Both the position numbers and the translations under genes were made by a program. The notes beneath the pieces were generated by a model. The model saw only the letters and a list, made by a program, of their open reading frames with translations. It did no database searches and was not told the DNA's origin. Shown in pieces: positions 5,723 to 20,982 of a DNA stretch of 52,203 bases. The DNA lies in assembly GCA_002737365.1 (NCBI GenBank), contig NSIL01000017.1, forward strand, positions 1-52,203, in the 5' to 3' direction. Position 1 is the stretch's first letter. Every line of letters begins with the position of its first letter. This stretch comes from Acidobacterium sp. (GTDB lineage Bacteria; Acidobacteriota; Vicinamibacteria; Vicinamibacterales; UBA2999).

Positions 5723-5762
5723 TTCCGAAAGTGATTCCGAAAGTGAAGCAGGTTCACTTTCG
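5723..5762. terminator. Tandem 12-mer plus inverted repeat between convergent genes; likely bidirectional terminator
   Basis: TTCCGAAAGTGA occurs twice in tandem (5723-5734 and 5735-5746). The second copy forms the left arm of a perfect 10-bp inverted repeat, CGAAAGTGAA (5738-5747) and TTCACTTTCG (5753-5762), with the 5-nt loop GCAGG. It lies between the TonB-receptor stop and the TetR gene stop and covers the last codons of the TetR gene. It would fold on both transcripts. There is no long U-tract, so termination is an inference from position. Confidence 0.5.
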
Positions 5763-6335
5763 CAGCAACCCGCCGACCAGGTAGTCGGCGAAGGCGGTGC
5801 CGATCTGGTCGGAGGTCGCTGGACCCTGGGGATCGAACCACTTCGGGATCCAGTTGACGGCGCCCATCATGGCGAACTCGATCAGCTTGGGATCGCCCGC
5901 CTTGAACACACCCTGGTCGATGCCTTGCTGGATGATCGCCCGCACGCCCTGGTCAAACTGATCGCGCTTGGCGATCACCCGCTTGAAGAGCACCGGTGAC
6001 AGCGCCTCGGGATCGAGCGTGAGCGCGGTGCCGTGCAACTCGTCGAGAATCAGGTGGACGAACGCCAGTACCAGCTTGCGGAGTTTCGCTTCGGGGCTCG
6101 ACCCTTCGGCCTGCACGTCGGCCATCAACGCCAGCAGCATGTCCAGCGAGTAGTCGTGGCAGGCGAAGAGAATCTCTTCCTTGTTCGTGAAGTAGTAGTA
6201 GAGGTTGCCCTTGGTCATTTCGAGTGCCGACGCGATTTCGTCGACGCTTGCACCGTGGTACCCGCGCCGGCGGAACGCGGCGGCGGCGCTCTTCAGAATG
6301 TCGGTCCGGCGATCGGTGGCGGCTGACTTGGCCAT
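5754..6335 (-). CDS. TetR/AcrR-family transcriptional regulator
   Basis: The 193-residue protein has an N-terminal TetR helix-turn-helix at about residues 10-55 (ILKSAAAAFRRRGYHGASV, then EIASALEMTKGNLYYYFTNKEE), followed by an all-helical ligand-binding domain. The ATG at 6335 gives the standard TetR start just ahead of the helix-turn-helix. A longer frame begins at 6362 but would run into the operator. It is divergent from the box-pathway-like operon at 6399, and a perfect inverted repeat lies in the shared promoter region, so it probably represses that operon and itself. By analogy with regulators of acyl-CoA catabolism the effector may be an aromatic or fatty acyl-CoA. The effector is an inference. 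Confidence 0.88.
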   Translation of the reverse strand: MAKSAATDRRTDILKSAAAAFRRRGYHGASVDEIASALEMTKGNLYYYFTNKEEILFACHDYSLDMLLALMADVQAEGSSPEAKLRKLVLAFVHLILDELHGTALTLDPEALSPVLFKRVIAKRDQFDQGVRAIIQQGIDQGVFKAGDPKLIEFAMMGAVNWIPKWFDPQGPATSDQIGTAFADYLVGGLLRK

Positions 6336-6362
6336 AGGGCGTGGAGCAAGTATGTCATACAT

Positions 6363-6392
6363 TTGAACGAGTGTTCAAGAACGTAGTAAACT
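6363..6392 (+). promoter_or_regulatory. TetR-type operator overlapping the -35 of the boxC/B-like operon promoter
   Basis: TTGAAC-gagt-GTTCAA (6363-6378) is a perfect 6+6 bp inverted repeat with a 4-bp centre, typical in size for TetR-family operators. The left arm TTGAAC can serve as a -35, with TAAACT (6387-6392) as -10 at 18-bp spacing, ending 6 nt before the GTG at 6399. A repressor bound there would block RNA polymerase directly. The TetR gene start lies 28 bp away on the other side, so autorepression is also likely. Confidence 0.65.
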
Positions 6393-6398
6393 CTCTTG

Positions 6399-7109
6399 GT
6401 GGAACAAACTGCTCCGGCCCCGTCGGTGACTTTCGAAACATCTCCCGACCAGTACAAACACTGGAGGCTGACCGTCGACGGCAACGTCGCGACCCTGACC
6501 ATGGACGTGCGCGAAGACGCCGGCCTGCGGCCCAATGACTACAAGCTGAAGCTTAATTTCTACAACCTCGGCGTCGATATCGAGCTCGCCGACGTCCTGC
6601 AGCGGCTGCGTTTCGAGCACCCGGAAGTCTACTCGGTGGTGTTGACGAGCCTGAAGCCGCGCATCTTCTGCGCCGGCGCCAACATCTTCATGCTCGGCGC
6701 GTCGAGTCACGCGTTCAAGGTGAACTTCTGCAAGTTCACCAACGAAACCCGGCTCGGCATGGAAGACATGAGTGCGCACAGCGGCATCAAGTTCATGGCG
6801 GCCGTCAACGGCATTTGTGCCGGCGGCGGATATGAACTCGCGCTGGGCCCGCCGGGGTTCCAGGACAGTCACCAGGTCTACCTGCGTACGGCGATCAGCG
6901 TCGATGCCGCCGGCTGGGCGCACTTCGACTACGTGCGGTTGCCTGAGTATCGCTGGGGCATCTTCCTCGCCGAGCCGACGCCCGATCGGCGCATTGGCCT
7001 CGGCGACTTCAAGGGCCAGCCGGGGCAGTTCGCCGACTACATTGCCCCGCCGCAGCGTGGCATCAACCGCCAACTGATCGACTTTGAGTACGTTCGGACC
7101 GAACAATGA
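6399..7109 (+). pseudogene. Chimeric remnant of box pathway genes: boxC N-terminus joined in frame to two pieces of boxB
   Basis: Residue numbers count from the TTG at 6396. Residues about 10-150 match the N-terminal crotonase region of BoxC, benzoyl-CoA-dihydrodiol lyase (LRPNDYKLKLN, DIELADVLQRLRFEHPEV, IFCAGANIFMLGASSHA, VNGICAGGGYELAL). At about residue 150 it switches to the early part of BoxB, the benzoyl-CoA 2,3-epoxidase oxygenase (VYLRTAISVDAAGWAHFDYV, EYRWGIFLA, FGD-like GDFKGQ). At about 208 it jumps to the extreme BoxB C-terminus (FADYIAPPQRGIN, DFEYVR). The second crotonase half of BoxC and all di-iron ligands of BoxB are missing, so neither activity is expected. Both junctions keep the frame. 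The GTG at 6399 is preferred over the TTG at 6396 because of the -10 spacing. The next gene overlaps the stop, indicating an operon. Confidence 0.75.
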
Positions 7110-7972
7110 GCGAACGCGCTGTCATGGACGTGACGACGGTGGCGGTTCTCGGCGCCGGCACCATGGGCCACGGCATTGCCCACGCGGCGATGGCCGCCGG
7201 CTACCGAACGGTGCTCTATGACGTGTCGCCGGCGCAGTTGGACAGGGGCCAGGCCGCGATCGACGCGGTGATTCACAAGGGCATCGAACTCGGCAAGGTG
7301 GCAGCCGATGACGCGGCCGCAATGCGCGGACGGCTTCGGCTGGCCACCGTTGTCGCCGAGGCGGTGCGCGAGGCCGACATCGTGATCGAAGCCGCTCCGG
7401 AAAACATCGACTTGAAGCTGTCGTTGTTCCGCGCGGTTGAGGCCGCCGCGCCGGCTCACGCCGTGCTCGCATCGAATACCTCGGCCCTCAGCATCACCGA
7501 GATGTCGGCGGTGCTGGCAAACCCGGGCCGCATGGGCGGCATGCACTTCTTCAATCCCGTTCACCGCATGAAGCTGGTCGAAGTGGTCAAGGCGCTCGAC
7601 ACGACCGCTGAAACCATTGCGGTGATGGAGGCGGTGTCAGCGAAGATGGGGAAGGAGACGGTGCTCGTGAGAGAGTCGCCGGGTTTCATCACCACGCGGA
7701 TCAACGCGCTGATTGGCAACGAAGCGTTCTACATGCTGCAGGACGGCGTGGCCAGCGCCCGTGACATCGACAAAGGGCTGAAACTCGGGTTGAACCACCC
7801 GATGGGTCCGTTTGAGCTCGTCGACCTGGTGGGGTTGGACACCCGCCTCAGCATCCTGCAGTACCTGCACAAGATGCTGGGCGAGAAGTTCCGCCCCTGC
7901 CCCCTGCTCGAGCAGCACGTCCGCGACGGACGGCTGGGCCGCAAGGTCGGCAAGGGCGTCTACGACTACTGA
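7106..7972 (+). CDS. 3-hydroxyacyl-CoA dehydrogenase (3-hydroxybutyryl-CoA dehydrogenase type)
   Basis: The 288-residue NAD-dependent enzyme oxidises (S)-3-hydroxyacyl-CoA to 3-ketoacyl-CoA. The N-terminal Rossmann motif GAGTMG lies at 16-21. SNTSAL (about 123-128) and the catalytic-His segment MHFFNPVHRMKLVEVV (H147, E159) match the family signature. The C-terminal dimerisation domain contains GFITTRI and NHPMGPFELVDLVGLD, and the protein ends with the usual RKVGKGVYDY. Length and motifs indicate an intact single-domain enzyme. It overlaps the boxC/B remnant by ATGA, so it was probably part of an aromatic ring-cleavage and beta-oxidation operon under the TetR regulator. Unlike its neighbour it appears fully functional and may now serve general acyl-CoA metabolism. 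Confidence 0.93.
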   Translation: MSERAVMDVTTVAVLGAGTMGHGIAHAAMAAGYRTVLYDVSPAQLDRGQAAIDAVIHKGIELGKVAADDAAAMRGRLRLATVVAEAVREADIVIEAAPENIDLKLSLFRAVEAAAPAHAVLASNTSALSITEMSAVLANPGRMGGMHFFNPVHRMKLVEVVKALDTTAETIAVMEAVSAKMGKETVLVRESPGFITTRINALIGNEAFYMLQDGVASARDIDKGLKLGLNHPMGPFELVDLVGLDTRLSILQYLHKMLGEKFRPCPLLEQHVRDGRLGRKVGKGVYDY

Positions 7973-8427
7973 ATGACGATCGTGCCTTTCAGGCCGGCGT
8001 TGCCCGGCAGGTTGTGGTCGTGATAGGCGCAGGTCCGCACCGTGTTGAGGTTGGTGGTGGTCCGCGACTGACCGGCGTTCAGGAATCCCACCGAGTTAAT
8101 CTCAGTGCAGGTCGTGTGTTCCGGGTGCGGGTCTGACGCCATGTCGTGCGACCGGCTGTCGTTGTTGACGAACGTCACTCGGCCGCCGCGGGTAATCGTC
8201 ACGCTCGACGGGCTGACCGAGCCGTTGGCGCCGATCGTGATCGTCGCCAAATCTGTCACGGTCGTGGTCGGCGGTACGGTCGTGGTCGGTGGCGTGGTGG
8301 TGGTCGGTGGCATGGTCGTGGTCGGTGTTGGCGTGGTCGGTGCCGAACTGCTGCCGCCGCCACATGCCGCCGCCGTCATGGCCACAATGGTGGCCGCCGC
8401 CAGCCCCTTCAGAATCGTCTGCTTCAT
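7966..8427 (-). CDS. Cupredoxin-domain lipoprotein with Thr/Pro-rich spacer
   Basis: The 153-residue protein starts with a lipoprotein signal (TAAAC, lipid-anchored Cys at about 22). A spacer of TTP/TTTP repeats (about 29-57) follows, then a small beta-sandwich of plastocyanin type. Likely copper ligands are the His in NDSRSHDMASDP and the Cys/His residues in RTCAYHDHNLPG, giving an H...C-x2-H-x-H arrangement. A downstream Met ligand is not obvious, and an extra Cys (HTTCTE) could form a disulfide. It is the third gene of a redox operon, overlapping the stop of the DUF5777 gene by one base (TAATG). Its 3' end overlaps the convergent dehydrogenase gene by 7 bp. A role in periplasmic electron transfer is inferred. 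Confidence 0.8.
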   Translation of the reverse strand: MKQTILKGLAAATIVAMTAAACGGGSSSAPTTPTPTTTMPPTTTTPPTTTVPPTTTVTDLATITIGANGSVSPSSVTITRGGRVTFVNNDSRSHDMASDPHPEHTTCTEINSVGFLNAGQSRTTTNLNTVRTCAYHDHNLPGNAGLKGTIVIQ

Positions 8428-9272
8428 TAGAAGAACTTCCTCGCCAGGTTGAACCCGAGATACCAGTCTTCGTAGGCCGTTCCGCCCCGCGCTACCTGGG
8501 CGAGCGTGGTGCCGTAGCCGTTCGAGAAGTTTAGCTGAAATAGGTGGCCGCCGGCTCGTTGTTCGAACCCAAAACTGATCAGCGTCACGCCGGGTTTGTA
8601 ACCGGCGACCCGCGGGGACGCTTCAAGGAACAGATAGGTGTTCTTGGCGGCGCGCAGCCGCGCGCCAACGCCGGTCGTCACCGTGTAGTCCTCATCTGAG
8701 GGCAGCACGCCGATGTTGACGTTCGACACGACCGAGGGCTCGAAGTACACCGCAAGGCGGTCGTCGTACTCGCGCGACAGGATCAGGGCGGCGCCGGGCG
8801 AGAACTCGTCGGTGAAGTTGCCGGTGCCGTCAATGTTGACGGCCACGCCGAACCCCAGGGGCGCGTGCGGCTTGGCCGTCGCGGAATACTGGGCCGAGAA
8901 CTGGACCGTGCGGTCGGACGTGCGATACACGCCGACCTGGCCGCCGCGGAACAGGCCGTATTTCAGGTCGAGACCGATCTGCGCGCTGCTGTCGAAACCG
9001 AACAGCCGCGCCGCGAGGTCACTGAAGTCGCCATCGCCCAGGGGCTGCAGGAAGCGATGCGTCAGTCGAAAAGCCAGCTTGCCCTTCGGCAGCCGCAGGT
9101 TCGTCGGCATGGTCGCGACGTAGAAGTCGGGCTGTGCGTTATTGGGATCGAGATCCGGATCGTCGGTCGTGACCGGCGCCTGCGCCGCCGCCGGTAAGAC
9201 GAAGCACGCGACGATCAGGGCCGCCAACAGCAAACGGGACAAAGACTTGATCAACGACGATTCGCCTGACAT
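8427..9272 (-). CDS. DUF5777-like outer-membrane beta-barrel protein
   Basis: The 281-residue protein has a signal peptide (about 1-31, ending AAAQA). Short amphipathic strands follow throughout: 'VATMPTNLRLPKGKLAFRLTHRF', 'IGLDLKYGLFRGGQVGVYR', 'AALILSREYDDRLAVYFEPS', 'GARLRAAKNTYLFLEASP'. It ends in an aromatic terminal strand (YLGFNLARKFF). This pattern matches the DUF5777 family of predicted small barrels found beside YceI and cupredoxin genes. No catalytic motif is seen. It begins 3 nt after the stop of the CuA-like gene and overlaps the next gene by one base, so all three are cotranscribed. A structural or pore role in an envelope redox module is an inference. Confidence 0.75.
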   Translation of the reverse strand: MSGESSLIKSLSRLLLAALIVACFVLPAAAQAPVTTDDPDLDPNNAQPDFYVATMPTNLRLPKGKLAFRLTHRFLQPLGDGDFSDLAARLFGFDSSAQIGLDLKYGLFRGGQVGVYRTSDRTVQFSAQYSATAKPHAPLGFGVAVNIDGTGNFTDEFSPGAALILSREYDDRLAVYFEPSVVSNVNIGVLPSDEDYTVTTGVGARLRAAKNTYLFLEASPRVAGYKPGVTLISFGFEQRAGGHLFQLNFSNGYGTTLAQVARGGTAYEDWYLGFNLARKFF

Positions 9273-9275
9273 GAC

Positions 9276-9761
9276 TTACTTCCTGGCCGCCACCACGAGC
9301 AGGCCCCTCATCTCTTCGTGGCCCTTGCCACAGTATTCGGAACAGAGGATCGGGTACTCCCCGGCGGCCGACGCCACGAAATTTATGATGACAGCCTCGC
9401 CGCCTCGAGGCAAAGTCTTTTCAACGCGGAATTTCTTGATGCCGACGCCGTGGACGCCGTCAGCCGATGAGACCAGCAAGCGAATGTGCTCGCCCTCGGT
9501 CACCTCGATGCGGGCCGGCTCGAACGCGAATCGGCTGGCCACCACCTCGATCACGCGAGGTTCGCTCCTGGCATCAGAGGGCCTGTCCTGAGCGAGCCTG
9601 TGAACGGCGGAGCCGTTCGCAGGCGAGTCGAAGAGCGCAGAAGCCGCGGCAGGGTCCGGTTGAAAGCCCGGCATTGCTGCCACTCCCAACAGGAGCGTCG
9701 TCCCCACCGCGGCAACTGCGTCTACAAAAGGGGTCAGGTTCGACGTCAACTGATACGACAT
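9276..9761 (-). CDS. Membrane-anchored CuA-type cupredoxin (cytochrome oxidase subunit II-like)
   Basis: The protein has one hydrophobic N-terminal segment (about 9-30), a linker, and a cupredoxin domain with a full CuA ligand set: an upstream His (DGVHGVGI) and CSEYCGKGHEEM near the C-terminus (Cys, Glu, Cys, His, Met). CuA centres accept electrons from cytochrome c, but no terminal-oxidase catalytic subunit is nearby, so this is probably a stand-alone electron-transfer protein. The ATG at 9761 is preferred over an upstream TTG. A TACACT hexamer lies 5 nt ahead of it. The linker (residues about 45-65) is encoded by an inserted palindromic repeat at 9583-9632 and is unlike anything expected in the family. 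Confidence 0.82.
   Translation of the reverse strand: MSYQLTSNLTPFVDAVAAVGTTLLLGVAAMPGFQPDPAAASALFDSPANGSAVHRLAQDRPSDARSEPRVIEVVASRFAFEPARIEVTEGEHIRLLVSSADGVHGVGIKKFRVEKTLPRGGEAVIINFVASAAGEYPILCSEYCGKGHEEMRGLLVVAARK
9583..9632. repeat. Dispersed palindromic (REP-like) repeat inserted in a coding frame
   Basis: The repeat begins CTGTCCTGAGCGAG and ends GCGAGTCGAAG. It encloses a hairpin of CCTGTGAACGGC (9597-9608) and GCCGTTCGCAGG (9612-9623) with a 3-nt loop and a single G-T wobble. Its sequence resembles the 'TCCTGAGCGAG...GAGTCGAAG' class of short repeats common in many environmental bacterial genomes. Here it is translated on the minus strand as part of the linker of the CuA-like protein without breaking the frame. 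Only one copy is seen in the window. Confidence 0.6.
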
Positions 9762-10930: not shown

Positions 10931-12988
10931 CTAGCGCCGGCTTAGCCGGCGCTGGGCTTCGGCATAGCGCGACGAATCCTGCGGTACTTTCGCGTATGCC
11001 TCTTTTGCCTTGGCCGGTTCGTTCAGGCGCCGTTCGTAGATCTCGCCCAGGCGGAACCACACCTCCATGGGATTGCCGGGAAAGCGCGCGCCCAGGTCTT
11101 CGAGCGTCTGCGCGGCTTCGGCGTGACGGTCTATGGCGCTCAGCGTCGCCGCCAGGCGGTTGCGCGCGGCCATTGACTGAGGCGTCTCCGGGAACTGCTC
11201 GATGATGGTCCGCAAGGTCACCATCACGGCCGGGACGTCGACCTTCAGGACCGGATCGATTTCCTTCAGGTTCTTGCGATCGGTCTCGATCTTCAGCTTG
11301 GTGTTGAGCGCGGCATTCGCCTGGGGCGTGCCCGGAAACTCGCGGACGATCTCGCCCAGTAGCTCGCGCGCCTGGAATTGCGCGCGCGGCTGGCGGACGC
11401 GGCCGAGCATCATCGCCCGTCGCAGCTTGCTGTCGGCGGTGCGGCGGTCGCCGGCATTCCGGCTTTCGAATTCCACCAGTGCCGCCATTGCGTCGTCGGT
11501 CCGGCCGACCTTCTCGTAGAGTTCAGCCGAGAGCAGTGCGGCCTCGGCGCCGGCGCGAGAACCGGGGTAGTCAACCATGATCTGCTTGAGATCGACCAGG
11601 GCTTGGTCGTTCAAGTTGTTGGCGACCTTGGCGCGCGCCACTTCAAGCCGCTGCATCGCTTCGGCATCGCGCGACACCACTGGTGCCGGTGCCGGCGCGA
11701 CGGGCTTCGCCGCCGGCTTGGCGGTGGCCGGTGCGGTGCCGGTGGGCCGGGCCGTCGCGGTGCCATTCACTGGCGCCGTGGGTTTCGCGATGGCCGCTGG
11801 CGCCACTGCGGGCGGCGCGGCAGGCGCGGGTGGTGGCGCCGCTGGATTGGCCGTGTTGACGGCAGGTGACTCAACCAGGGGGGTTGGCGTCACCGCGGCC
11901 TGCTGCGCGAGTTCGGTAACCGTTGATTCGCCACCCCGGTTCGCAACATACGTCCCCACGCCGGCCGCAATGGCCGCAATGATGACGACGCCCACGCCGA
12001 GACCCGCACCGGAACCGACGGCGACCTGGCTTCCCGATGGCAGCACTACGGTGGCGGCATCGGGACTGATGGCGCTGGCTGCTGCCGGTATTACGCCCTG
12101 ACGCGAAGCGGAATCGCGGCGCAGCCGCTTGAGATCGGCGCCAAGGTCGGCGGCGGTCTGGTAACGCAGCGAGCGATCCTTTTCGAGCGCCTTCGACACG
12201 ATGCGATCGAACTCGCCGGGGATCGAGGTGTTGAGGCTGCTGGGCGGCACCGGGTCTCGATTGAGGATGCCGTCAAAGACCACGGCCGTCGTGGATCCGG
12301 GAAAGCTCGGCCTGCCGGTGGCCATTTCGTAGAGCACCACGCCGAACGAAAACAGATCCGTGCGCGGGTCCACTTCGTCGCCACGCGCTTGCTCGGGCGA
12401 CATATAGGCAATGGTGCCGACGGTCGTGCCCGCCATGCTCGTGAAGTGCTCCTCGATGCGGGTCTCATGACTGGCATCGAGGTGGCGCCTCGAGCGGCGG
12501 TATTCAGGCGACAGCTTGGCGAGACCGAAGTCGAGGACCTTGACCGAGCCGCGGCGGGTGATGAAGATGTTCGCCGGCTTCACATCGCGATGCAGAATGC
12601 CCTCGGTGTGCGCGGCATCCAGTGCATCGGCGACTTGCGCGGCGATCTCGAGCATCAGGCGCATGTCGAGCGGCCGCCCCGACAGCTTGCTGTCGAGCGG
12701 TTCACCATCGAGCAACTCCATGGCCAGGTAGAGTTGGCCCTCGTGCTCATCGAAGCCGTAGATGGTGCAGATGTTGGGGTGGTTCAGGGCCGAGGCGGTG
12801 CGTGCTTCGCGCTTGAATCGCTCGATCGCCTCTTGGTTGTCGCTGCTGCCGGCCGGCAGCACCTTGAGCGCGACCTGGCGCCCAAGCTTGAGGTCCTGGG
12901 CGCGGTACACGACGCCCATGCCACCGGCTCCAAGCCGGTCGATGATGCGGTAGTGCCCGAGTGTTTGGCCGATGAGGGTGTCAGACAC
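10931..12988 (-). CDS. Membrane Ser/Thr protein kinase with periplasmic TPR region
   Basis: The 685-residue protein has an N-terminal Hanks-type kinase domain (about 12-275): glycine loop RLGAGGMGVVYRA, VALKVL lysine, catalytic loop HRDVKPANI, DFG (VLDFGLAKL), and APE-like YMSPEQARG with DLFSFGVVLYEM. A hydrophobic, Gly/Ala-rich transmembrane segment lies at about 328-350. A long Ala/Pro/Thr linker and TPR or YbgF-like helical repeats (about 440-685) would lie in the periplasm. Such kinases, abundant in Acidobacteriota, phosphorylate cytoplasmic targets in response to envelope cues. The activation segment contains an Arg/His-rich insert (YRRSRRHLDASHETRIEEH) of unusual charge. The last codons and stop lie in a 21-bp palindrome (10933-10953). 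It is monocistronic. Confidence 0.93.
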   Translation of the reverse strand: MSDTLIGQTLGHYRIIDRLGAGGMGVVYRAQDLKLGRQVALKVLPAGSSDNQEAIERFKREARTASALNHPNICTIYGFDEHEGQLYLAMELLDGEPLDSKLSGRPLDMRLMLEIAAQVADALDAAHTEGILHRDVKPANIFITRRGSVKVLDFGLAKLSPEYRRSRRHLDASHETRIEEHFTSMAGTTVGTIAYMSPEQARGDEVDPRTDLFSFGVVLYEMATGRPSFPGSTTAVVFDGILNRDPVPPSSLNTSIPGEFDRIVSKALEKDRSLRYQTAADLGADLKRLRRDSASRQGVIPAAASAISPDAATVVLPSGSQVAVGSGAGLGVGVVIIAAIAAGVGTYVANRGGESTVTELAQQAAVTPTPLVESPAVNTANPAAPPPAPAAPPAVAPAAIAKPTAPVNGTATARPTGTAPATAKPAAKPVAPAPAPVVSRDAEAMQRLEVARAKVANNLNDQALVDLKQIMVDYPGSRAGAEAALLSAELYEKVGRTDDAMAALVEFESRNAGDRRTADSKLRRAMMLGRVRQPRAQFQARELLGEIVREFPGTPQANAALNTKLKIETDRKNLKEIDPVLKVDVPAVMVTLRTIIEQFPETPQSMAARNRLAATLSAIDRHAEAAQTLEDLGARFPGNPMEVWFRLGEIYERRLNEPAKAKEAYAKVPQDSSRYAEAQRRLSRR
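10933..10953. repeat. Palindrome with CTTAG core at the kinase gene end
   Basis: AGCGCCGGCT and AGCCGGCGCT flank a single T, forming a 10-bp perfect inverted repeat centred on CTTAG. It provides the TAG stop of the kinase gene and lies between two convergent genes. It shares its layout with the palindromes at 21676-21697 and 22797-22818. It probably acts as a bidirectional terminator or is a member of a small palindromic repeat family. Confidence 0.6.
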
Positions 12989-13077
12989 GGTGCGGGTCGT
13001 TCATCGTATGCCTGCAACGCCTTGACAGGGAAGGGGGTGAACGCTACAGTCAAGAATCTGAAACGTCGTTCCGTATA

Positions 13078-13842
13078 GTGGAATTAACTCAGCTTCAACC
13101 GAGCCGACCAGCTAGCGCCCCCACCTCCGTCGACAAGGCGCTCGAGGTGTGCGAGGTGCTGAGCGGTATGCCACGCGGCATGAGTCTCTCCGACCTCGCC
13201 CGCGCACTACGACAGCCGGCTCCCACTGTCCATCGCCTGCTCGGCGTCCTGAAGCGCCGCGGCTACGTCAGGCAAGACGACGAGACGCAGCGCTACGGCC
13301 TGACGCTGAAAATGCTCGACCTCAGCTTCCGCTCGCTCGGACAATCAGAGCTGCGCCTTCATGCCTACCCGATCATGAGGGAATACGTCTTGCGGACGCC
13401 CTATCGCGGGTTCATCGCGATTCCGGCCAGTGGGGAAGTGACCTACGTGTGGAGCACCGGTCCGGACGAAGTGGCCATGCGGACGGTCTACGGCAAAGAG
13501 ATGCCAGGACACTGCGCCATCTACTTCTCGCCGCGTCAGGCGACGCGCCGGTTGAGTTGCTTGCGGCTGGCCACGCCGGGTGAACTCGCGCAGCCGGAGG
13601 CGACCGTCGTGCGCATGGGACCGCCGCCGAGGGAACCCGATGCCCTACAACGGCTGTTTTGTACCTGCGCGCCAGTGCGCGACTACACCGGACACGAAGT
13701 GGCGCGGGTCGGCGTGTTCGGCCACGGCGCTGACGATCGGCCCATTCTGACGGAACACCACCGCGGCGCCTGGGACCTGGCGCGTCGCATCTCGATGCGC
13801 CTTGGTCACGTTCCGGCCAATACCCTCGAGAGCACCGCTTAG
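13078..13842 (+). CDS. IclR-family transcriptional regulator
   Basis: The 254-residue protein has an N-terminal winged helix-turn-helix (about 17-75: SVDKALEVCEVLSG, SLSDLARALRQPAPTVHRLL, LKRRGYVRQDDETQRYGLT), as in IclR regulators. A C-terminal effector domain follows (about 90-245; GKEMPGHCAIYFS and APVRDYTGHEVARVGVFG are the usual IclR signatures). These regulators often control aromatic-acid or acyl-CoA catabolism. The GTG at 13078 is the only start that includes the whole helix-turn-helix. However, a TATAGT (13074-13079) overlaps it, so the exact start is uncertain. It lies upstream of a ferredoxin gene in the same direction, separated by a heptamer tandem repeat. The target is unknown; the box-type locus 6 kb away is one candidate. 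Confidence 0.85.
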   Translation: MELTQLQPSRPASAPTSVDKALEVCEVLSGMPRGMSLSDLARALRQPAPTVHRLLGVLKRRGYVRQDDETQRYGLTLKMLDLSFRSLGQSELRLHAYPIMREYVLRTPYRGFIAIPASGEVTYVWSTGPDEVAMRTVYGKEMPGHCAIYFSPRQATRRLSCLRLATPGELAQPEATVVRMGPPPREPDALQRLFCTCAPVRDYTGHEVARVGVFGHGADDRPILTEHHRGAWDLARRISMRLGHVPANTLESTA

Positions 13843-13843
13843 T

Positions 13844-13871
13844 TTCTAACTTCTAACTTCTAACTTCTAAC
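13844..13871 (+). repeat. Heptamer tandem repeat (TTCTAAC) x4
   Basis: Four perfect head-to-tail copies of TTCTAAC fill the space between the IclR stop and the ferredoxin gene, followed by TTACAAGGA and the ATG 15 bp later. The AAGGA at 13876-13880 is a good Shine-Dalgarno sequence for the ferredoxin. The 7-bp unit cannot be coding. Confidence 0.9.
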
Positions 13872-13886
13872 TTACAAGGATCAGTT

Positions 13887-14147
13887 ATGGCCTACATCAT
13901 CACGGAACCCTGCATCGGCACCAAAGACTCGGCCTGCGTCGACGTCTGCCCGGTCGACTGCATCCACCCGCGCAAGGACGAAGGCGACTTCGAGGCGGCC
14001 ACCCAGCTCTACATTCACCCGGACGAGTGCATTGATTGCGGCGCGTGCGTGCCGGCCTGCCCGGTCGAGGCCATCTTCGCCCTGGATGAAGTGCCGGAAA
14101 AGTGGAAGAACTACATCGACATCAACTCCAAGCACTTCCAGAAATAA
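13887..14147 (+). CDS. Ferredoxin with two iron-sulfur clusters (FdxA type)
   Basis: The 86-residue protein carries an N-terminal cluster motif (C9, CVDVCPVDC with C17, C21, C26) and a second CIDCGACVPACPVEAI motif (about 50-65). This is the pattern of 7Fe/8Fe ferredoxins of the FdxA family, including the acidic helix and KWKNYIDINSKHF tail. The extra Cys and irregular spacing in the first motif suggest a [3Fe-4S]/[4Fe-4S] pair. It transfers low-potential electrons in the cytoplasm; its redox partner is not encoded nearby. An AAGGA ribosome site precedes the ATG by 6 nt. It is an intact, highly expressed type of gene judging by its strong start signals. Confidence 0.93.
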   Translation: MAYIITEPCIGTKDSACVDVCPVDCIHPRKDEGDFEAATQLYIHPDECIDCGACVPACPVEAIFALDEVPEKWKNYIDINSKHFQK

Positions 14148-14173
14148 ACCGGTTGACCGGCCGGCTTCACACC

Positions 14174-14179
14174 TAGAAT
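14174..14179 (+). promoter_or_regulatory. Candidate promoter -10 (TAGAAT) for the TPR/retropepsin gene
   Basis: TAGAAT lies 67 bp before the chosen ATG (14247), with TTGACC (14153-14158) as a possible -35 at a short 15-bp spacing. A GAGAGG ribosome site (14237-14242) precedes the ATG, so this gene would have a leader. Confidence 0.4.
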
Positions 14180-14246
14180 CGAACTATTGACTCTAGGGAC
14201 TGCGCCCCCCGGGTCAGGCTCGATCTTGGACTTGGTGAGAGGTTCT

Positions 14247-15758
14247 ATGCCGATTCGACCTCGCAAGGCGTTGGTGGTGATGGCCGTGCTCGCGGCGCTG
14301 GCTTCGGGTGTCCAGGGGCGTGCGCCTGGGGACGATGCCGCCCTCCAGTTTCAACTGGGGACGCTGCTCTTCGAAGAGACGCGATACCGGGAAGCGCTCG
14401 CGGCGTTCCGCCTGGCGGTCGACGCCGATAGCAAGTCGCTGTCCTTGCAGGCGCGGATGGGCGTGGTGAAGTCGGCCCTGCGGCTGGGTGAGTTCTTCGA
14501 GGCCCAGAAAGAAGCGAAAATCCTCAAGCAGCAGGCGCCAATGAGTGCCGAGGTCCTGACCCTTCACGCTGACGCGCAATGGTCGGCCGGCCTCTTCGAC
14601 GAGGCCCACGAAGAATTCAAGGATGCCCTCGCCCTGGTGCCTGACCTGTCGCGCGGCCACCACGGCCTGGCCCGCGCGCTGGCCTCCCAGAACCGGCTTG
14701 ACGAAGCGCTGAACGAAGCGCAGGTGGCACTCAAGTTGGCTCCCCGCGATGAACAGGCGCATCACACCGTCGGCGCGATCTTCGAGCGCATGCGCCGTTA
14801 CGAGCAAGCCGCGGCGGCGTACGGCAACTACGTCAACCTGCTCCCCAACAAGGATCGCAGCGAGAAGGCGTCGTGGTCGCGGTCGCAGATTCGCTTCCTC
14901 CGTTCGTTCGGTGAACGCGAGCCGATTGCCATGGACGTCGCCGCTGCCGAGAGCCTTCACACCGTCGACTTCCGGATCATCGATGACAAGGTCATCGTCA
15001 AGGCCAAGGTCAACGGCGGACGGCCGCAGGACTTCGTGCTCGATACCGGGTCTGAGCTGACCACCATCTCGCGGCAAACCGCGTCGAACGGCGCCGTGCG
15101 CCCGATTACCTACACGCTCAGTGCCGGCGTCGGCGAAGTTGGCTTGCGCGGCCTGCAGTTGGGCCGCCTCGACACCTTCGAGGTCGGCACCATGAAGTTG
15201 AGCAACGTCCCGGCGCTGATCAAGGCCCCGGCGCTGCGCGGCATACCCAAGCGCGAAACCGAGAGCTTCTCGCCGCTTGGCCTCGGGCTGTCGATGACCA
15301 TCGACTACGCGACGCACAAGCTCACGATGGGCCGCCAGCTGCCCCAGGCGACGGCCGAGTTCACCCTGCCGATGCGTCACCACCGGTTATCGATGGTGCG
15401 CGGCCTGATCAACCAGACGCGGCCAACCTACTTCGTGGTCGACACCGGTGGCGAAGTGATCTCGATTAGCACGGCGACGGCCGAGGAGCTGGACTACGAC
15501 ATGCCACGCAAGATTGCGCTGCGTGTCTACGGCACGTCGGGTTGGGATCGGGACGCGTTCCTGATGCCGGGCGTGAACCTGAAGTTCCAGAACATCCTGT
15601 TCAATAACTTCGCGGTGGTGGTGCTGAACCTGCAGGCGCCGAGCGTGCTGCTGGGCTTCCAGGTGGGCGGCATTGTCGGCCACCGCTTCCTCAGTCCCTA
15701 CCGCGTCTCGCTGGATCTCGATCGCAGCGAGTTACGGATGACCAAAGCGACGAATTAG
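14247..15758 (+). CDS. Exported TPR protein with two retropepsin-like aspartic protease domains
   Basis: The 503-residue protein has a signal peptide or anchor (about 1-25). Tetratricopeptide helices follow (about 30-215: 'ALQFQLGTLLFEETRYREAL', 'EVLTLHADAQWSAGLFDEA', 'RGHHGLARALASQNRLDEAL'). Two half-domains of retropepsin/DUF-type aspartyl proteases follow, each with the motif: FVLDTGSELTTIS (D266) and FVVDTGGEVISIS (D399). In retropepsin-like enzymes two DTG loops combine in one active site, so the two halves may form a single intramolecular protease. A start at 14187 (TTG) is possible, but the ATG with the GAGAGG ribosome site is better. The stop is in the first GGGGCTT heptamer. The role is probably periplasmic processing or binding. 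Confidence 0.82.
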   Translation: MPIRPRKALVVMAVLAALASGVQGRAPGDDAALQFQLGTLLFEETRYREALAAFRLAVDADSKSLSLQARMGVVKSALRLGEFFEAQKEAKILKQQAPMSAEVLTLHADAQWSAGLFDEAHEEFKDALALVPDLSRGHHGLARALASQNRLDEALNEAQVALKLAPRDEQAHHTVGAIFERMRRYEQAAAAYGNYVNLLPNKDRSEKASWSRSQIRFLRSFGEREPIAMDVAAAESLHTVDFRIIDDKVIVKAKVNGGRPQDFVLDTGSELTTISRQTASNGAVRPITYTLSAGVGEVGLRGLQLGRLDTFEVGTMKLSNVPALIKAPALRGIPKRETESFSPLGLGLSMTIDYATHKLTMGRQLPQATAEFTLPMRHHRLSMVRGLINQTRPTYFVVDTGGEVISISTATAEELDYDMPRKIALRVYGTSGWDRDAFLMPGVNLKFQNILFNNFAVVVLNLQAPSVLLGFQVGGIVGHRFLSPYRVSLDLDRSELRMTKATN

Positions 15759-15778
15759 GGGCTTGGGGCTTGGGGCTT
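15758..15778. repeat. Heptamer tandem repeat (GGGGCTT) x3
   Basis: Three perfect copies of GGGGCTT (a fourth is degenerate, GGGCCTC) lie between two convergent genes. The reverse complement of the same unit recurs in tandem at 16285-16302, so the thioesterase gene is flanked by the unit in inverted orientation. Confidence 0.85.
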
Positions 15779-15790
15779 GGGCCTCGGCCG

Positions 15791-16273
15791 CTACTCGGCG
15801 GCCTTTCTCTTCAGCCGTTCCGCGCGACGCACCCGGGCCTGCCGGACGAGCTCTTCATCTTCAGGCGTCTCGACCAGCAGCGGTGGGACCTGCGCCGGCT
15901 TCCCGTTCTTATCGAGCGACACGAACGTCAGGTAGGCCTTGCTGGTCAGCTTCTGCTCGCCCGTCTCGATTGCTTCCGAGAACACCTCGACTTCGACTTC
16001 GAGCGACGTGTTGAACACGCACGTCACGCGCGATTTCAGGAGGATCAAGTCGCCGACCTTGATCGGATGGATGAAGTCGAGCGAATCGACTCCGGCGGTG
16101 AGTGCCAGCATGTTGGTGTGGCGGTGACAGGCAACCGCGCCGGTGATGTCGATCAGATGCATCACCGTGCCGCCGAGAATGAAGCCTAACGGATTGGAGT
16201 CGTTCGGAAGAACGACTTGAACTGTTTCCGCTGTCGAATCCTGCCAACGTTTGGGTTTGTGACTTGGGACCAC
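15791..16273 (-). CDS. Acyl-CoA thioesterase, hotdog fold
   Basis: The 160-residue protein matches the YciA/BACH-like hotdog thioesterases, which hydrolyse acyl-CoA to free acid and CoA in the cytoplasm. Features are NPLGFILGGTVMHLIDITGAVACHRH (long hotdog helix with the active-site Asp), TAGVDSLDFIHPIKVGDLI and SKAYLTFVSLDKNGKP, with a Lys/Arg-rich tail (RRAERLKRKAAE). The frame stays open to 16324, but that extension is encoded by the AAGCCCC heptamers. The GTG at 16273 lies 6 nt after a TACAAT and is preferred. It stands alone, convergent with the TPR/protease gene. Substrate chain length cannot be inferred. Confidence 0.88.
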   Translation of the reverse strand: MVPSHKPKRWQDSTAETVQVVLPNDSNPLGFILGGTVMHLIDITGAVACHRHTNMLALTAGVDSLDFIHPIKVGDLILLKSRVTCVFNTSLEVEVEVFSEAIETGEQKLTSKAYLTFVSLDKNGKPAQVPPLLVETPEDEELVRQARVRRAERLKRKAAE

Positions 16274-16279
16274 ATCTGA

Positions 16280-16285
16280 ATTGTA
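16280..16285 (-). promoter_or_regulatory. Candidate -10 (TACAAT) of the thioesterase gene, leaderless type
   Basis: On the minus strand TACAAT ends 6 nt before the GTG at 16273. There is no Shine-Dalgarno sequence. The heptamer array lies immediately upstream, in the -35 to spacer region. Confidence 0.5.
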
Positions 16286-16302
16286 GCCCCAAGCCCCAAG
16301 CC
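16285..16302. repeat. Heptamer tandem repeat (AGCCCCA) x2.5, inverse of the array at 15758
   Basis: Two full copies and one half copy of AGCCCCA, the reverse complement of the GGGGCTT unit (in shifted phase). It occupies the promoter spacer of the thioesterase gene and adjoins the 3' end of the large surface-protein gene. Confidence 0.75.
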
Positions 16303-16307
16303 TCTTT

Positions 16308-19300
16308 TTACCAATCGTAGCCAATCCACAGCGAGAACTTGACCTTGCGGAAGGCCTCGCTGCCGCCGGACTGCGCGTAGACCACGTCCTCCCAGTCCTT
16401 GTTCATCAGCGTCTTCCATGACCAGTCGAAGTGGAGCGGGAAGCCCAGGGCCATCGACGAGAGGCTGATGCCGTAGGACGCCTTGGCGTCGACGAAGCGC
16501 CGGCCGGTGACGAGCACCGGTGCGCCGTAAATCGGGTTGCCGCTGCGGTCGTAGTTGAGAATCGGCCGCTCGATAGTGGTGTCGTTGCTGAAGATGGTGA
16601 AGGGCGTGTCGCCGAAGTGCGCGCCGCCCAGGCCGGCAAACAGTGTGGCGCGAACTCCGCCGAGGACGCCAATCGGCGTCGCCATGGCTTCGATCAGCGG
16701 GAAGCGCAGTTCCGCGTTGGTGAAGAACGCCTTCTGGCCGACGAACTCCAGGTAGTCATAGCCACGCAACTCGGCGTTGCCGCCGAAGTAGGTGTAGTCG
16801 GGATTGTTGCCCCAGCTGTTGAAACCGCGGCCGCGCAAGGCGAGCAGGCCGGTCGAACCGATGCGCAAGTACTTCCGCAGGTCGGCATCGATGGTCTGCC
16901 GGGACAGTGTGTTGCCAATCTTCGGCGCGACCGAGTAGGCCACGCGCATGGTGCTGCCTGACAGCGGGCCAAACTCGCGGAAGATGGTGGTCTCCTGAAC
17001 GAACGCGGCCCCGATCGGCACCATGTTGCCGTTGTTGAACAGCGATGCGCCGTACTGTTGCTGCTGATATTGGTCGGCCACGGCGCCGACGTTGGGGTCT
17101 TCGTAGCGTTCCTGGTAGCGCGTGAAGCCGCCGAACACCTCGACGCGGCGGTAACGGTTGAATGGATAGATGCCGAACATGGTGCCGCCCTGCATGGTGC
17201 GGGTGGCGGTGGCCAGGTCGCGATCGATCAGGCCGTTGTAGGCCGGATCGTAGAAGATGCCGTCGAGCTGACCGTAGAAAAACTCGGTGGTGTTGTAGGC
17301 CTGCAGCGCCCACTGCAGCCGCTTCTCCATGTTGAGCCACGAGAACTGCATGGTGCGGTACTGCGATACCGACGAGATGAACATGTTGAACTGCTGGTCG
17401 CCGAGCACGTCGGTGAACACGACCTGCGTGCCGCCGAAGACGTCGCCGCCGCTCGTGACGCCCAGGGCCACAGGCGGCCGGCCCTCGAGGAACAGCTTCT
17501 CGAACTTGCCCTTCTTCTTCTTGTTGCCGGCTACCAGTTGGTGGCTGATGGGCGCCTGGAAGTCGACGATCGGGCCGGGTGAGCCGAAGTCGGAGCTGGC
17601 GACCTTGGTGAGTTCGTCCTTGCGATCCAGCACGTGCAGGCCGTACTCACCCTTGAAGTAGGTGACAAAGGCGAGCTTGGTGTTGGGGCCATCGCGCAGC
17701 ACCACCGGGGACAGGTTGCCCGACAGCGCGTCGGTGTACTGCTTCAGCTCGTTGGTCTTCAAGTCGAGCGTCCACAGGTTGTAGATCTGGCCGTTCTTGG
17801 CGACGTCCGGGTCGATGGGCTCGGCCGGGTTGACCGCAGTTGACGAGAACACCAGCGTATTGGCGTCGAGAAACTGTGGCCCTCCCTCGTCGTGGGTGCC
17901 GAAGGTGAGCTGTAGGCCGTTCTTTCCGTCGGCATCCATCCGGAAGATCTTCTCGTTACCGCTGACGCGCACCAGGTACACCAGCGACTTGCCATCGGGT
18001 GCCCAGGTCGGCGCGTAGTTCGAGAAGTTGTCCTTCGTCAGGTTGACGATCTCCTTGGTCTCGAGGTTGACCGTGAAGATCTCGGCCTGGCTGCCCTGCA
18101 TGCCCGAGAAGGCGACCAGCTTGCCATCGGGCGAGAAGTCGGGCGACTCGGGCGCATCGACCGTCTTCAACGCGACCCGCACTTCGATCTTGCGCGAGAC
18201 CACGTTCTGCACGATCAGGGAGCGGTCCTTCTCGGTGCGCACGAAGTAGGCAATGCGATCGCCGGACGGCGACCACGACATCCACGGCACCGAGTTCCAG
18301 CGCCCGCCAGGCGTCGCCAGGTACTCGAAGCCCATGCTCTGGTCGAAGCCGCTCGTCAGGTTGCGGACCACCGAGCCGTCCTTCGCTGAGATCAGCACGA
18401 TGTCGTACTCGCGGTCGCGGCCGTTGCCGGTCATGCCGGCAATCAGGTCACCCGAGGGCGACGGCTCGATCGACAGCACATTGGAGAACTGGCCCTTGCG
18501 CGGATCCGGCGCGAGGTCACGGCCATAGTCGGCCGGCCGCTCCTTGTCACGGAACGGCTTGAAGCGTTCTTTCAGGTAGCGGTCGAACTGCTGGTCCCAC
18601 TCGTCAGGCCCAATCTGGAACGCTTCCTGATACGCATCATCCGTACCGCCGATCACCGAGCGGCGCAGGGCGAACACGTAGGCGCGCACGCCTTCCTTGC
18701 CCCACTTGGATTCCATGAACTCGAAGGCGGCGTGACCCAGGTTGTAGATCAAGCGGGGGTTGCTGAAGCCGCCGTAGTCCTGCATTTCGCTCATCTTCGG
18801 CACGATGTCCGAGACCGCGGCATCGCGGACCGTCATGATGTCGAGCGGACGCCAGTAGCCGGTCATGTAGTCGGACATGCCTTCCATGGTCCACAGCGGC
18901 ATGTTGCGGCGGATGAGACCGGTCGGAATGATGTCGAACTGGAACTGGTGCGTGAGCTCGTGGACGATCAGTCGATAGAGCAGATCGGGCGGTTCGTCGA
19001 TCGGCATCACCATGCGATAGCGGCCGGGTTCGGCGAACGCGCCAACGCCTTCCTGCGCCGCGCCGGGAATCACGTTCTGCTGCCAGAACTCGCTGGCCGT
19101 CGAGAACAGAATGAGTGGCAGCTTCATCGACAGGTCGTGCTTCAGTTCCGAGCTGACATGCTGGTAGGCGCTTTCGGCGTAGCCGGCAATACGCTCAAGG
19201 TGGGGTTCGATTTCCGGGTAGTAGTAGATTTCAAAATGCTCGGTCTGGTAGGTGTGCCACTCGAAAGTGTCATAGCGGATCTGGTTCTTCCCAAAATACG

Positions 19301-19418
19301 GGATGTAGCCGGTCTGCGCCTCCGCCACGGCGGGCGCCACCATGGCGACTGCCAACATCGAACATAAGGCCAGTGACCTGAAGGCTGGCGTCAAGGCGTT
19401 CCGCTGCGGGGTGCGCAT
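16308..19418 (-). CDS. Large outer-membrane protein: peptidase-MA domain, TolB-like propeller, Omp85-like barrel
   Basis: The 1036-residue protein has a signal peptide (about 1-35, ending AEAQ). An N-terminal peptidase MA-like domain contains the gluzincin motif HELTH (in YRLIVHELTHQFQ) and a downstream Glu (WTMEGMSDYMTGY). The middle holds TolB/PD40 WD-like repeats (about 310-620: SPSGDLIAGM, WSPSGDRIAYFV, FSPDGKLVAFSG, WAPDGKSLVYLV). The C-terminal third resembles a bacterial surface-antigen barrel with GGNAELRGYDYLEF, ending in KFSLWIGYDW. This domain set is characteristic of Acidobacteriota. It may be a surface or periplasm-facing protease. The ATG at 19418 follows a GGAGAG ribosome site; the longer frame to 19523 reads through a dispersed repeat. 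Confidence 0.88.
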   Translation of the reverse strand: MRTPQRNALTPAFRSLALCSMLAVAMVAPAVAEAQTGYIPYFGKNQIRYDTFEWHTYQTEHFEIYYYPEIEPHLERIAGYAESAYQHVSSELKHDLSMKLPLILFSTASEFWQQNVIPGAAQEGVGAFAEPGRYRMVMPIDEPPDLLYRLIVHELTHQFQFDIIPTGLIRRNMPLWTMEGMSDYMTGYWRPLDIMTVRDAAVSDIVPKMSEMQDYGGFSNPRLIYNLGHAAFEFMESKWGKEGVRAYVFALRRSVIGGTDDAYQEAFQIGPDEWDQQFDRYLKERFKPFRDKERPADYGRDLAPDPRKGQFSNVLSIEPSPSGDLIAGMTGNGRDREYDIVLISAKDGSVVRNLTSGFDQSMGFEYLATPGGRWNSVPWMSWSPSGDRIAYFVRTEKDRSLIVQNVVSRKIEVRVALKTVDAPESPDFSPDGKLVAFSGMQGSQAEIFTVNLETKEIVNLTKDNFSNYAPTWAPDGKSLVYLVRVSGNEKIFRMDADGKNGLQLTFGTHDEGGPQFLDANTLVFSSTAVNPAEPIDPDVAKNGQIYNLWTLDLKTNELKQYTDALSGNLSPVVLRDGPNTKLAFVTYFKGEYGLHVLDRKDELTKVASSDFGSPGPIVDFQAPISHQLVAGNKKKKGKFEKLFLEGRPPVALGVTSGGDVFGGTQVVFTDVLGDQQFNMFISSVSQYRTMQFSWLNMEKRLQWALQAYNTTEFFYGQLDGIFYDPAYNGLIDRDLATATRTMQGGTMFGIYPFNRYRRVEVFGGFTRYQERYEDPNVGAVADQYQQQQYGASLFNNGNMVPIGAAFVQETTIFREFGPLSGSTMRVAYSVAPKIGNTLSRQTIDADLRKYLRIGSTGLLALRGRGFNSWGNNPDYTYFGGNAELRGYDYLEFVGQKAFFTNAELRFPLIEAMATPIGVLGGVRATLFAGLGGAHFGDTPFTIFSNDTTIERPILNYDRSGNPIYGAPVLVTGRRFVDAKASYGISLSSMALGFPLHFDWSWKTLMNKDWEDVVYAQSGGSEAFRKVKFSLWIGYDW

Positions 19419-19470
19419 AATCTCTCCACTCTGCATCTTACCGATCCTCCGGCAACAGCCGCAATCAACG

Positions 19471-19502
19471 GCTTGCCGCGCCGTAGCCTTGGCGAAGGCG
19501 GG
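19471..19502. repeat. Dispersed repeat encoding the 'FAKATAR' peptide in one frame
   Basis: The segment GCTTGCCGCGCCGTAGCCTT...GGCGAAGGCGGG reads on the minus strand as AFAKATARQA. The same peptide pattern appears in many spurious hypothetical proteins from acidobacterial and related genomes because it comes from a short dispersed repeat. Here it lies in the spacer between the large surface-protein gene and the sigma factor, and it falsely extends the former's frame. Confidence 0.5.
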
Positions 19503-19614
19503 GTTTGGCGGTCCGAAGAGCAAGATTCGAGCCGTCGCCCTTCGTCCTATGCTTGGGACGCGACGCCACCGGGAATATTCGGGCTCACCCGGGGTTAATA
19601 GATTAGAGTCAGCT

Positions 19615-19620
19615 TAGAAT
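19615..19620 (+). promoter_or_regulatory. Candidate -10 (TAGAAT) of the sigma/anti-sigma/TlpA operon
   Basis: TAGAAT ends 4 nt before the ATG at 19625, again without room for a ribosome site. A second hexamer, TAGAGT (19604-19609), lies 15 nt upstream of the start and is an alternative. Confidence 0.45.
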
Positions 19621-19624
19621 CCCC

Positions 19625-20218
19625 ATGTTTTCTGGGCGACGAACCGCAAGTGGACCTGCTGCCAACGAGGATGAGTTCTCGGCGGCGACGCTTGAATTCT
19701 TAGATGCGCTCTACGGGGCCGCGTTGCGACTGACGCGTAACGCCGACCGGGCCCAGGACCTGGTGCAAGACACTTACCTGAAGGCCATCCGGGCCCGCGG
19801 TCGTTTTGCGACGGGCACTAACCTGAAGGCGTGGCTGTATACCATCCTCCATAACACCTGGAGGAACTGCCTGCGCGATAGCGCGCGATCGCGGGTGTCG
19901 TTCGACTCGGCGGTGGTGGAAGAAGCGGCGGAGGGGGCTCGCCTGGCGCCCTCGGGGCAGGTAGACAGCCCGGAGACCCAGCTGATGCAGGCCACACTCG
20001 ATGCCGACCTCCAGCAGGCGCTCGATACGCTGCCGGAGTCGTTTCGTGAAGTGGTCTGGCTGCGGGACGTCGACGAATTGTCGTATCAAGAGATCGCCGC
20101 AGTGCTCGAGGTGCCGATCGGAACGGTGATGTCGCGCCTGTCACGCGGCCGCAAACAACTGTTTGTGCTGTTGACGGCGCAACGAGAACGCCCGCGCGGG
20201 CGTCTAAATGGTGAGTAA
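19625..20218 (+). CDS. ECF-family RNA polymerase sigma factor
   Basis: The 197-residue protein has sigma region 2 (about 20-90: ALYGAALRLTRNADRAQDLV, QDTYLKAIR, FATGTNLKAWLYTILHNTWRN) and region 4 (about 125-180: QQALDTLPESFREVVWLRDV, DELSYQEIAAVLEVPIGTVM, SRLSRGRKQL). There is no region 1.1 or 3, as expected for extracytoplasmic-function sigma factors. The anti-sigma gene starts 3 nt after the stop and a TlpA-like gene follows, so the system may respond to an envelope or thiol-redox signal. Its target promoters are not identifiable from this window; autoregulation is usual for the class. Confidence 0.92.
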   Translation: MFSGRRTASGPAANEDEFSAATLEFLDALYGAALRLTRNADRAQDLVQDTYLKAIRARGRFATGTNLKAWLYTILHNTWRNCLRDSARSRVSFDSAVVEEAAEGARLAPSGQVDSPETQLMQATLDADLQQALDTLPESFREVVWLRDVDELSYQEIAAVLEVPIGTVMSRLSRGRKQLFVLLTAQRERPRGRLNGE

Positions 20219-20221
20219 CGT

Positions 20222-20977
20222 ATGAATTGTAATGATCTCGCGGACAGGCTGACGACGGTCGTCGATGGCGGAGCCACTGAGGAAGATGAGGCCGCCGTCG
20301 CCCAGCACGTCGCCACCTGCGACGACTGCCGGCAGACGCTGCATGCCCAGACTACCGCGCGCACCGTGCTGCGGGCCAGGTCCGCCCAGTTGGCGGTGAC
20401 GGCGCCGCCGGGCCTGCGCACGCGCCTTGTCGCGTCGGCTCGCGCTGAACGTCCCGAGCCGAAGGGTGTGCTCAGTTGGCGCTGGAGCCTGTCAGCCTTC
20501 GCCGCCGCTGCGATGTTGGTGCTCACTCTCGGCGCCGTCCTGCTGCCGGTGGTGACTGAACGTTCGACGGTGGTGCTAGCGGCGCAGCTCGCCCTGGATC
20601 ACCTGAAGTGCTTCGTGATCGACGGCGACGTGTCCGGTTCGCCGATCAGCAAGGCCGAGGCTGAAGCCATCGTTCAGCGCGACCACGGCTGGAGCGCCAA
20701 TGTTCCCGCCTCGACTGACGGCCTGGAGCTGATGGCCGTGCGCTATTGCCTCTACGGCGACGGCCTCGCCGCGCACGTCCTGTATCGTGCTGACGGGCAG
20801 CCCGTTTCTCTGTTCATCATCCCCGGCCTGACCCGGCCAGCTACGGAATTGAGCGTGCTGGGACACGATGAAGTCGTGTGGAGCCACGGCGGTCGCACCT
20901 ACATGCTGGTCTCGGCGGCCGGGACCAAGGCCGGGCTGGCGCGCGTGGCGTGGTATCTGCAGAATGAGGCAAGATAG
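20222..20977 (+). CDS. Anti-sigma factor with zinc-finger N-terminus and one transmembrane helix
   Basis: The 251-residue protein has an N-terminal ZAS-type motif with H and CxxC (AQHVATCDDCRQTL; about 28-41, plus the Cys near the start), which binds the sigma factor and often zinc. A transmembrane helix (about 88-112, FAAAAMLVLTLGAVLLPVV) leads to a periplasmic domain with two Cys (DHLKCFVID, VRYCLYGDGL). Those Cys and the adjacent TlpA-like gene hint at redox control of sigma release. It starts 3 nt after the sigma gene and ends 5 nt before the thioredoxin-like gene. It is the cognate partner of the ECF sigma by position. Confidence 0.87.
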   Translation: MNCNDLADRLTTVVDGGATEEDEAAVAQHVATCDDCRQTLHAQTTARTVLRARSAQLAVTAPPGLRTRLVASARAERPEPKGVLSWRWSLSAFAAAAMLVLTLGAVLLPVVTERSTVVLAAQLALDHLKCFVIDGDVSGSPISKAEAEAIVQRDHGWSANVPASTDGLELMAVRYCLYGDGLAAHVLYRADGQPVSLFIIPGLTRPATELSVLGHDEVVWSHGGRTYMLVSAAGTKAGLARVAWYLQNEAR

Positions 20978-20982
20978 GCCTC

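Follow-up and report, generated by a model that had tools for sequence, protein, structure and literature searches.

The open reading frame at 6399-7109 on the forward strand is probably a decaying pseudogene of a boxC-boxB gene pair which, judged from sequence comparison, would have been shaped by two deletions between short homologies. The window, meaning here the whole stretch of 52,203 nucleotides that was analysed, is an entire contig of a 3.05-Mb draft genome (G000; 54 contigs, 97% complete, 0.69% contamination). The kind of event is already known, namely ordinary gene decay, and the locus clearly captures the ongoing loss of a catabolic gene pair from a single member of an uncultured genus, in which the other eight searched members retain the pair. 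It also carries a caution: a family search can flag a locus as positive for BoxC and BoxB though neither enzyme can be made.

Composition of the chimeric frame

The frame starts with GTG, encodes 236 amino acids and contains no internal stop, and by alignment the GTG at 6399 is the counterpart of the boxC start in the sister genome G006. It begins with BoxC residues 1-149, continues with BoxB from residue 38 to about residue 96, and closes with the 30 C-terminal BoxB residues. The features of the locus are as follows.

5754-6362, reverse strand: TetR-family regulator, divergent (PF00440, PF17932; same gene beside boxC in 8 same-genus relatives, blastn block)
6363-6378, no strand: putative operator, arms TTGAAC and GTTCAA with a 4-nt spacer (by eye; similar sequence 5' of boxC in 5 relatives)
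6384-6392, forward strand: possible -10-like element TAGTAAACT just 5' of the GTG start (by eye; resembles that in 5 relatives)
6399-6845, forward strand: BoxC N-terminal piece with GTG start, chimera residues 1-149 (TIGR03222 positions 1-140; 94% amino acid identity to G006 BoxC; block 5763-6846 92.7% identical to G006 in nucleotides)
6844-6846, forward strand: join 1, TGG common to the boxC and boxB breakpoints, 1356 bp absent relative to G006 (breakpoint alignment with G006 and G004)
6846-7023, forward strand: BoxB early piece, BoxB residues 38 to about 96 (TIGR03225 positions 37-95; 6844-7023 93.9% identical to G006 in nucleotides)
7016-7023, forward strand: join 2, CCAGCCGG, an 8-bp direct repeat at both breakpoints in G006 and G004, 1053 bp absent (breakpoint alignment; rarity count of deletion products)
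7016-7109, forward strand: BoxB C-terminal piece, last 30 residues, and stop (TIGR03225 positions 444-470; 3per 445-471)
7106-7972, forward strand: 3-hydroxyacyl-CoA dehydrogenase, first ATG overlapping the chimera stop (ATGA), likewise in G006 (PF02737, PF00725)

A preliminary description had read the frame as a BoxC-BoxB-BoxB chimera, a reading that hinged on BoxB likeness in residues of about 151-237, and alignment to reference families bears it out for each of the three blocks. TIGR03222 (BoxC, NCBIfam) pairs chimera residues 10-150 with its positions 1-140 of 548 (whole-protein E 2.9e-72). TIGR03225 (BoxB, NCBIfam) matches in two stretches, the best of which pairs residues 149-208 with positions 37-95 (whole-protein E 7.3e-27), and in the genome search the second BoxB piece, at 7017-7097, corresponds to positions 444-470 (E 3.8e-6). 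PDB chains concur, with 2w3p (BoxC) at residues 5-150 and 3per (BoxB) at 39-96 and 445-471. By score the chimera falls short of both families, reaching 244.2 bits against a cut-off of 712.3 for TIGR03222 and 94.3 bits, over two stretches, against 499.1 for TIGR03225. The neighbouring TetR and dehydrogenase genes, described as intact, both match their Pfam domains at full length.

The locus in relatives

When the chimera was used as a query against 59 relatives and its own genome, 28 of the 59 relatives gave matches, 24 with a BoxC N-terminal match and 4 with weak crotonase matches only. All eight same-genus relatives carry a long BoxC (frames of 552-563 aa) and a BoxB (frames of 479-565 aa); in G006 these are 559 and 475 residues long. 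According to blastn of 13 fetched regions, the gene order TetR, boxC, boxB is identical in the eight same-genus relatives and is followed by variable genes, and the chimera occupies exactly the boxC-boxB position next to TetR. As is expected of a deletion pseudogene, its counterparts at this position are intact in 8/8 same-genus relatives. An older, shared chimera was considered and rejected, since the BoxC N-terminal match sits in frames of 447-581 aa in the 24 other genomes, and no fusion of this kind occurs among 93 other loci (80 of them the best 80 of 412; genome duplicates included).

Of those 93 loci, again with 80 being the best 80 of 412, 88 give a BoxC alignment longer than 480 residues, four lose part of BoxC to the end of the locus and one (L103) has a broken BoxC. 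The last, from another Acidobacteria record, has a BoxC at 8001-9442 with a frame change and residues of about 232-291 unmatched. Two irregular BoxB genes were also observed: at L056 (3937-5345) it is split over two overlapping frames, suggesting a frameshift in a draft, and at L119 (9712-10491), in a Rhodocyclales record with a full BoxA elsewhere, the match ends at residue 264, well within the locus. A text search for literature on boxB and benzoyl-CoA in Acidobacteria found none.

Joins and missing segments

The preliminary description had placed the joins at about 6846 and 7017-7022 and had estimated the losses at roughly 1.3 and 1.0 kb, and both estimates hold: the joins lie within a few bases of these places, and the measured deficits relative to G006 are 1356 and 1053 bp. 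Intact relatives already carry both join repeats, of 3 and 8 bp. Among all losses of 300-1999 bp within the G006 boxC-boxB region, at least eight bases are shared at the breakpoints in 139 of 2,444,153 possible deletion products (P 5.7e-5), and at least three in 2.1%. Join 2 thus coincides with a direct repeat of a length that is rare in this region, and join 1, with 3 bp only, is weaker evidence than join 2. Each segment was most likely lost through short-homology recombination or replication slippage. The idea that the missing segments had moved elsewhere was rejected, as searches of the 97% complete draft found none. Both deficits are divisible by 3; the chance of two in-frame losses is 1/9, and no special cause is needed for the kept frame.

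Private changes in the kept pieces

Conservation panels were drawn from the 93 loci (80 being the best 80 of 412) at a coverage of at least 80% and with identical rows removed, giving 80 BoxC and 68 BoxB rows, with G006 included in both panels. S54F and D56N fall on sites invariant in 80/80 BoxC rows and F201L on a site invariant in 68/68 BoxB rows; the chimera states at residues 54, 56, 78, 201, 213 and 226 occur in no row. Changes were also polarised, with 10 outgroups for the chimera pieces and TetR and six for the dehydrogenase. From these counts, in which two residues are common to pieces 2 and 3, 16 changes without branch assignment were omitted (4, 1 and 0 from the chimera pieces in order, 7 from the dehydrogenase and 4 from TetR). 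The G000 and G006 branches measure 0.040 and 0.043, and the pair is joined with a support of 100. On the G000 branch, 7 of the 9 nonsynonymous changes hit sites invariant in the outgroups, versus 0 of 3 on the G006 branch over the same stretches, a contrast of 7 to 0 with a binomial P of 0.016 on small counts; the states of two of the seven, K23R and A34T, are present in 12/80 of the wider rows each. In the control genes, changes at invariant sites on the G000 and G006 branches number 1 and 0 for the dehydrogenase (6 outgroups) and 2 and 3 for TetR (10 outgroups), so that the chimera compares with the controls on the G000 branch as 7/238 codons versus 3/490 (Fisher P 0.017). For total nonsynonymous to synonymous changes, the G000 branch with 9:16 and the G006 branch with 3:17 show no significant difference (Fisher P 0.18), and evidence for relaxed constraint is thus confined to the invariant-site counts. 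At 0.05-0.10 per piece, dN/dS in the pairwise comparison with G006 is low, as would be expected if the deletions are recent. The private changes seem to point to decay and not to a kept hybrid.

Lost chemistry and the rest of the box pathway

The missing part of BoxB contains E120, E150, H153, E240 and H243, each invariant in 67-68 sequences from the 93 loci (80 being the best 80 of 412). The ExxH motifs of the diiron site (E150/H153 and E240/H243), whose residues we take to be the diiron ligands, lie in the missing segment and are absent from the chimera. The kept part of BoxC stops at residue 149, and the crotonase signature is incomplete: of E146 and E168, presumably the catalytic residues, the former is retained and the latter lost. 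The product would have neither BoxB nor BoxC activity. According to a review, BoxB is purified together with BoxC, which relieves the inhibition of BoxB by its product (PMC4498308). The search of the rest of the genome for boxB and boxC proposed in the preliminary description brought up no further copy: in this 97% complete draft, no other BoxB was found at E up to 10 beyond the two chimera pieces, and no other BoxC, the remaining matches being crotonase hits of at most 44.6 bits.

The preliminary description had expected a benzoyl-CoA (box) pathway at the locus. No BoxA exceeds the family cut-off in any of the nine same-genus genomes, G000 included (best 33 bits), or in any of 16 further BoxC-positive relatives, 13 of them also with BoxB (best 63 bits). 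In a control on six genomes behind other BoxC loci, BoxA reached 690 bits in the one titled Rhodocyclales and 666 bits in that titled Comamonadaceae, and the other four, Sorangium cellulosum among them, stayed below the cut-off. With BoxA below the cut-off throughout the genus sample, the box set of the textbooks was probably incomplete here from the outset. The occurrence of BoxC and BoxB with no BoxA reductase over the cut-off extends across G000-G008, G000 as a remnant, and the 16 further relatives. Benzoate-CoA ligase exceeds its cut-off in G001, G002, G003 and G007 and is absent over the cut-off from G000, G004, G005, G006 and G008; completeness is only 85% for G005 and 80% for G006.

Downstream dehydrogenase and upstream region

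On the G000 branch the dehydrogenase has 34 synonymous versus 6 nonsynonymous changes (dN/dS 0.06) and, by these counts, is still under purifying selection; the genome has three strong 3HCDH_N matches, this gene among them, and two weak ones. Because its start overlaps the boxB stop and the gene is still constrained, frame-breaking losses were perhaps weeded out. The frame would have stayed open either by chance or because frame-breaking losses would cut translation of the dehydrogenase. It can be speculated, as an idea rather unlikely to hold, that an open frame is retained here as a leader for translation: ribosomes would have to read through to the ATGA overlap for the dehydrogenase to be produced, selection having passed only in-frame deletions while both enzymes were discarded. 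An in-frame ATG at 7124 coincides with the dehydrogenase start position in G008 and G005 and may be the true start, which would weaken this coupling idea. Together, the joins and the ATGA overlap provide a testable model for frame keeping in decaying operons.

G008 has a gene for an enoyl-CoA hydratase between boxB and the dehydrogenase; G000 and G006 lack it. In G005 (L032, about 850-1003) it is a shortened, frame-broken remnant at the same place, which looks like a similar process nearby. Trimming of the operon tail has apparently occurred more than one time, with the tree placement of G005 supported at only 39.

Upstream of the chimera, comparison was made in the 5 of 11 regions that were readable, the remaining 6 not being located. 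The operator of the preliminary description survives as a putative one, recognised by eye, with operator-like sequence conserved in these five relatives. Consensus scans found no sigma-70 promoter in 6300-7200, and no terminator.

Alternative explanations

The preliminary description had left a choice between a trimmed, still-expressed hybrid and segments lost in assembly. An assembly or consensus error, in which the organism holds intact boxC and boxB genes and two segments were dropped, is compatible with a draft of 54 contigs at 97% completeness and with intact genes at the locus in 8/8 same-genus relatives. Short-read graph assemblers, however, require overlaps that greatly exceed 3 or 8 bp, and if one of these was used, such joins should occur in the reads. 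The joins moreover fall on ancestral direct repeats, and dropped segments alone would leave the private changes at invariant sites in the kept pieces unexplained. A contig-wide habit of dropping segments is absent from 12000-21627, which aligns to G006 as one 9.6-kb block (9,628 versus 9,634 bp) with no net loss; outside that block, matches to G006 are broken, partly through its 410 contigs, and other dropped segments are possible there. An error of this kind is considered improbable; the joins, above all the 8-bp ancestral repeat, and the private changes favour a remnant of real deletions in situ.

A mixed population, part of which has intact genes with the contig representing a deletion variant, would be compatible with a draft genome. 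The private changes suggest that the variant is not brand new and estimated contamination is 0.69%, so this explanation is given a low probability, slightly below that of an assembly error. A hybrid protein kept for its function, such as a small CoA-binding or partner-binding relic under selection, would fit a frame left open after two deletions, the conserved operator-like sequence and the low pairwise dN/dS. The last is also expected from recent deletions, and the loss of the BoxB ExxH motifs and most of BoxC, the private changes at invariant sites and the lack of any such fusion in the other 93 loci (80 being the best 80 of 412, duplicates included) make a functional hybrid very improbable. 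Of the choice posed at the start, real deletions are favoured, the changes point to decay and not to a kept hybrid, and expression is at most putative, the promoter scan having found nothing.

Comparison with known systems

Compared with BoxC (TIGR03222; PDB 2w3p), the chimera keeps the first 149 residues, 94% identical to those of G006, and lacks about 410 of 559, including invariant E168 and the entire second half. From BoxB, the benzoyl-CoA 2,3-epoxidase (TIGR03225; PDB 3per), it keeps a segment from residue 38 to about residue 96 plus the final 30 residues, and lacks the first 37 and about 350 central residues, both ExxH motifs among them. The locus resembles the general class of pseudogenes that arise when short direct repeats recombine and the DNA between them is lost, with which it shares its join repeats, its lost catalytic part and its changes at conserved sites. 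It differs from them in that two deletions are present, both in frame, and a single open frame spans two former genes.
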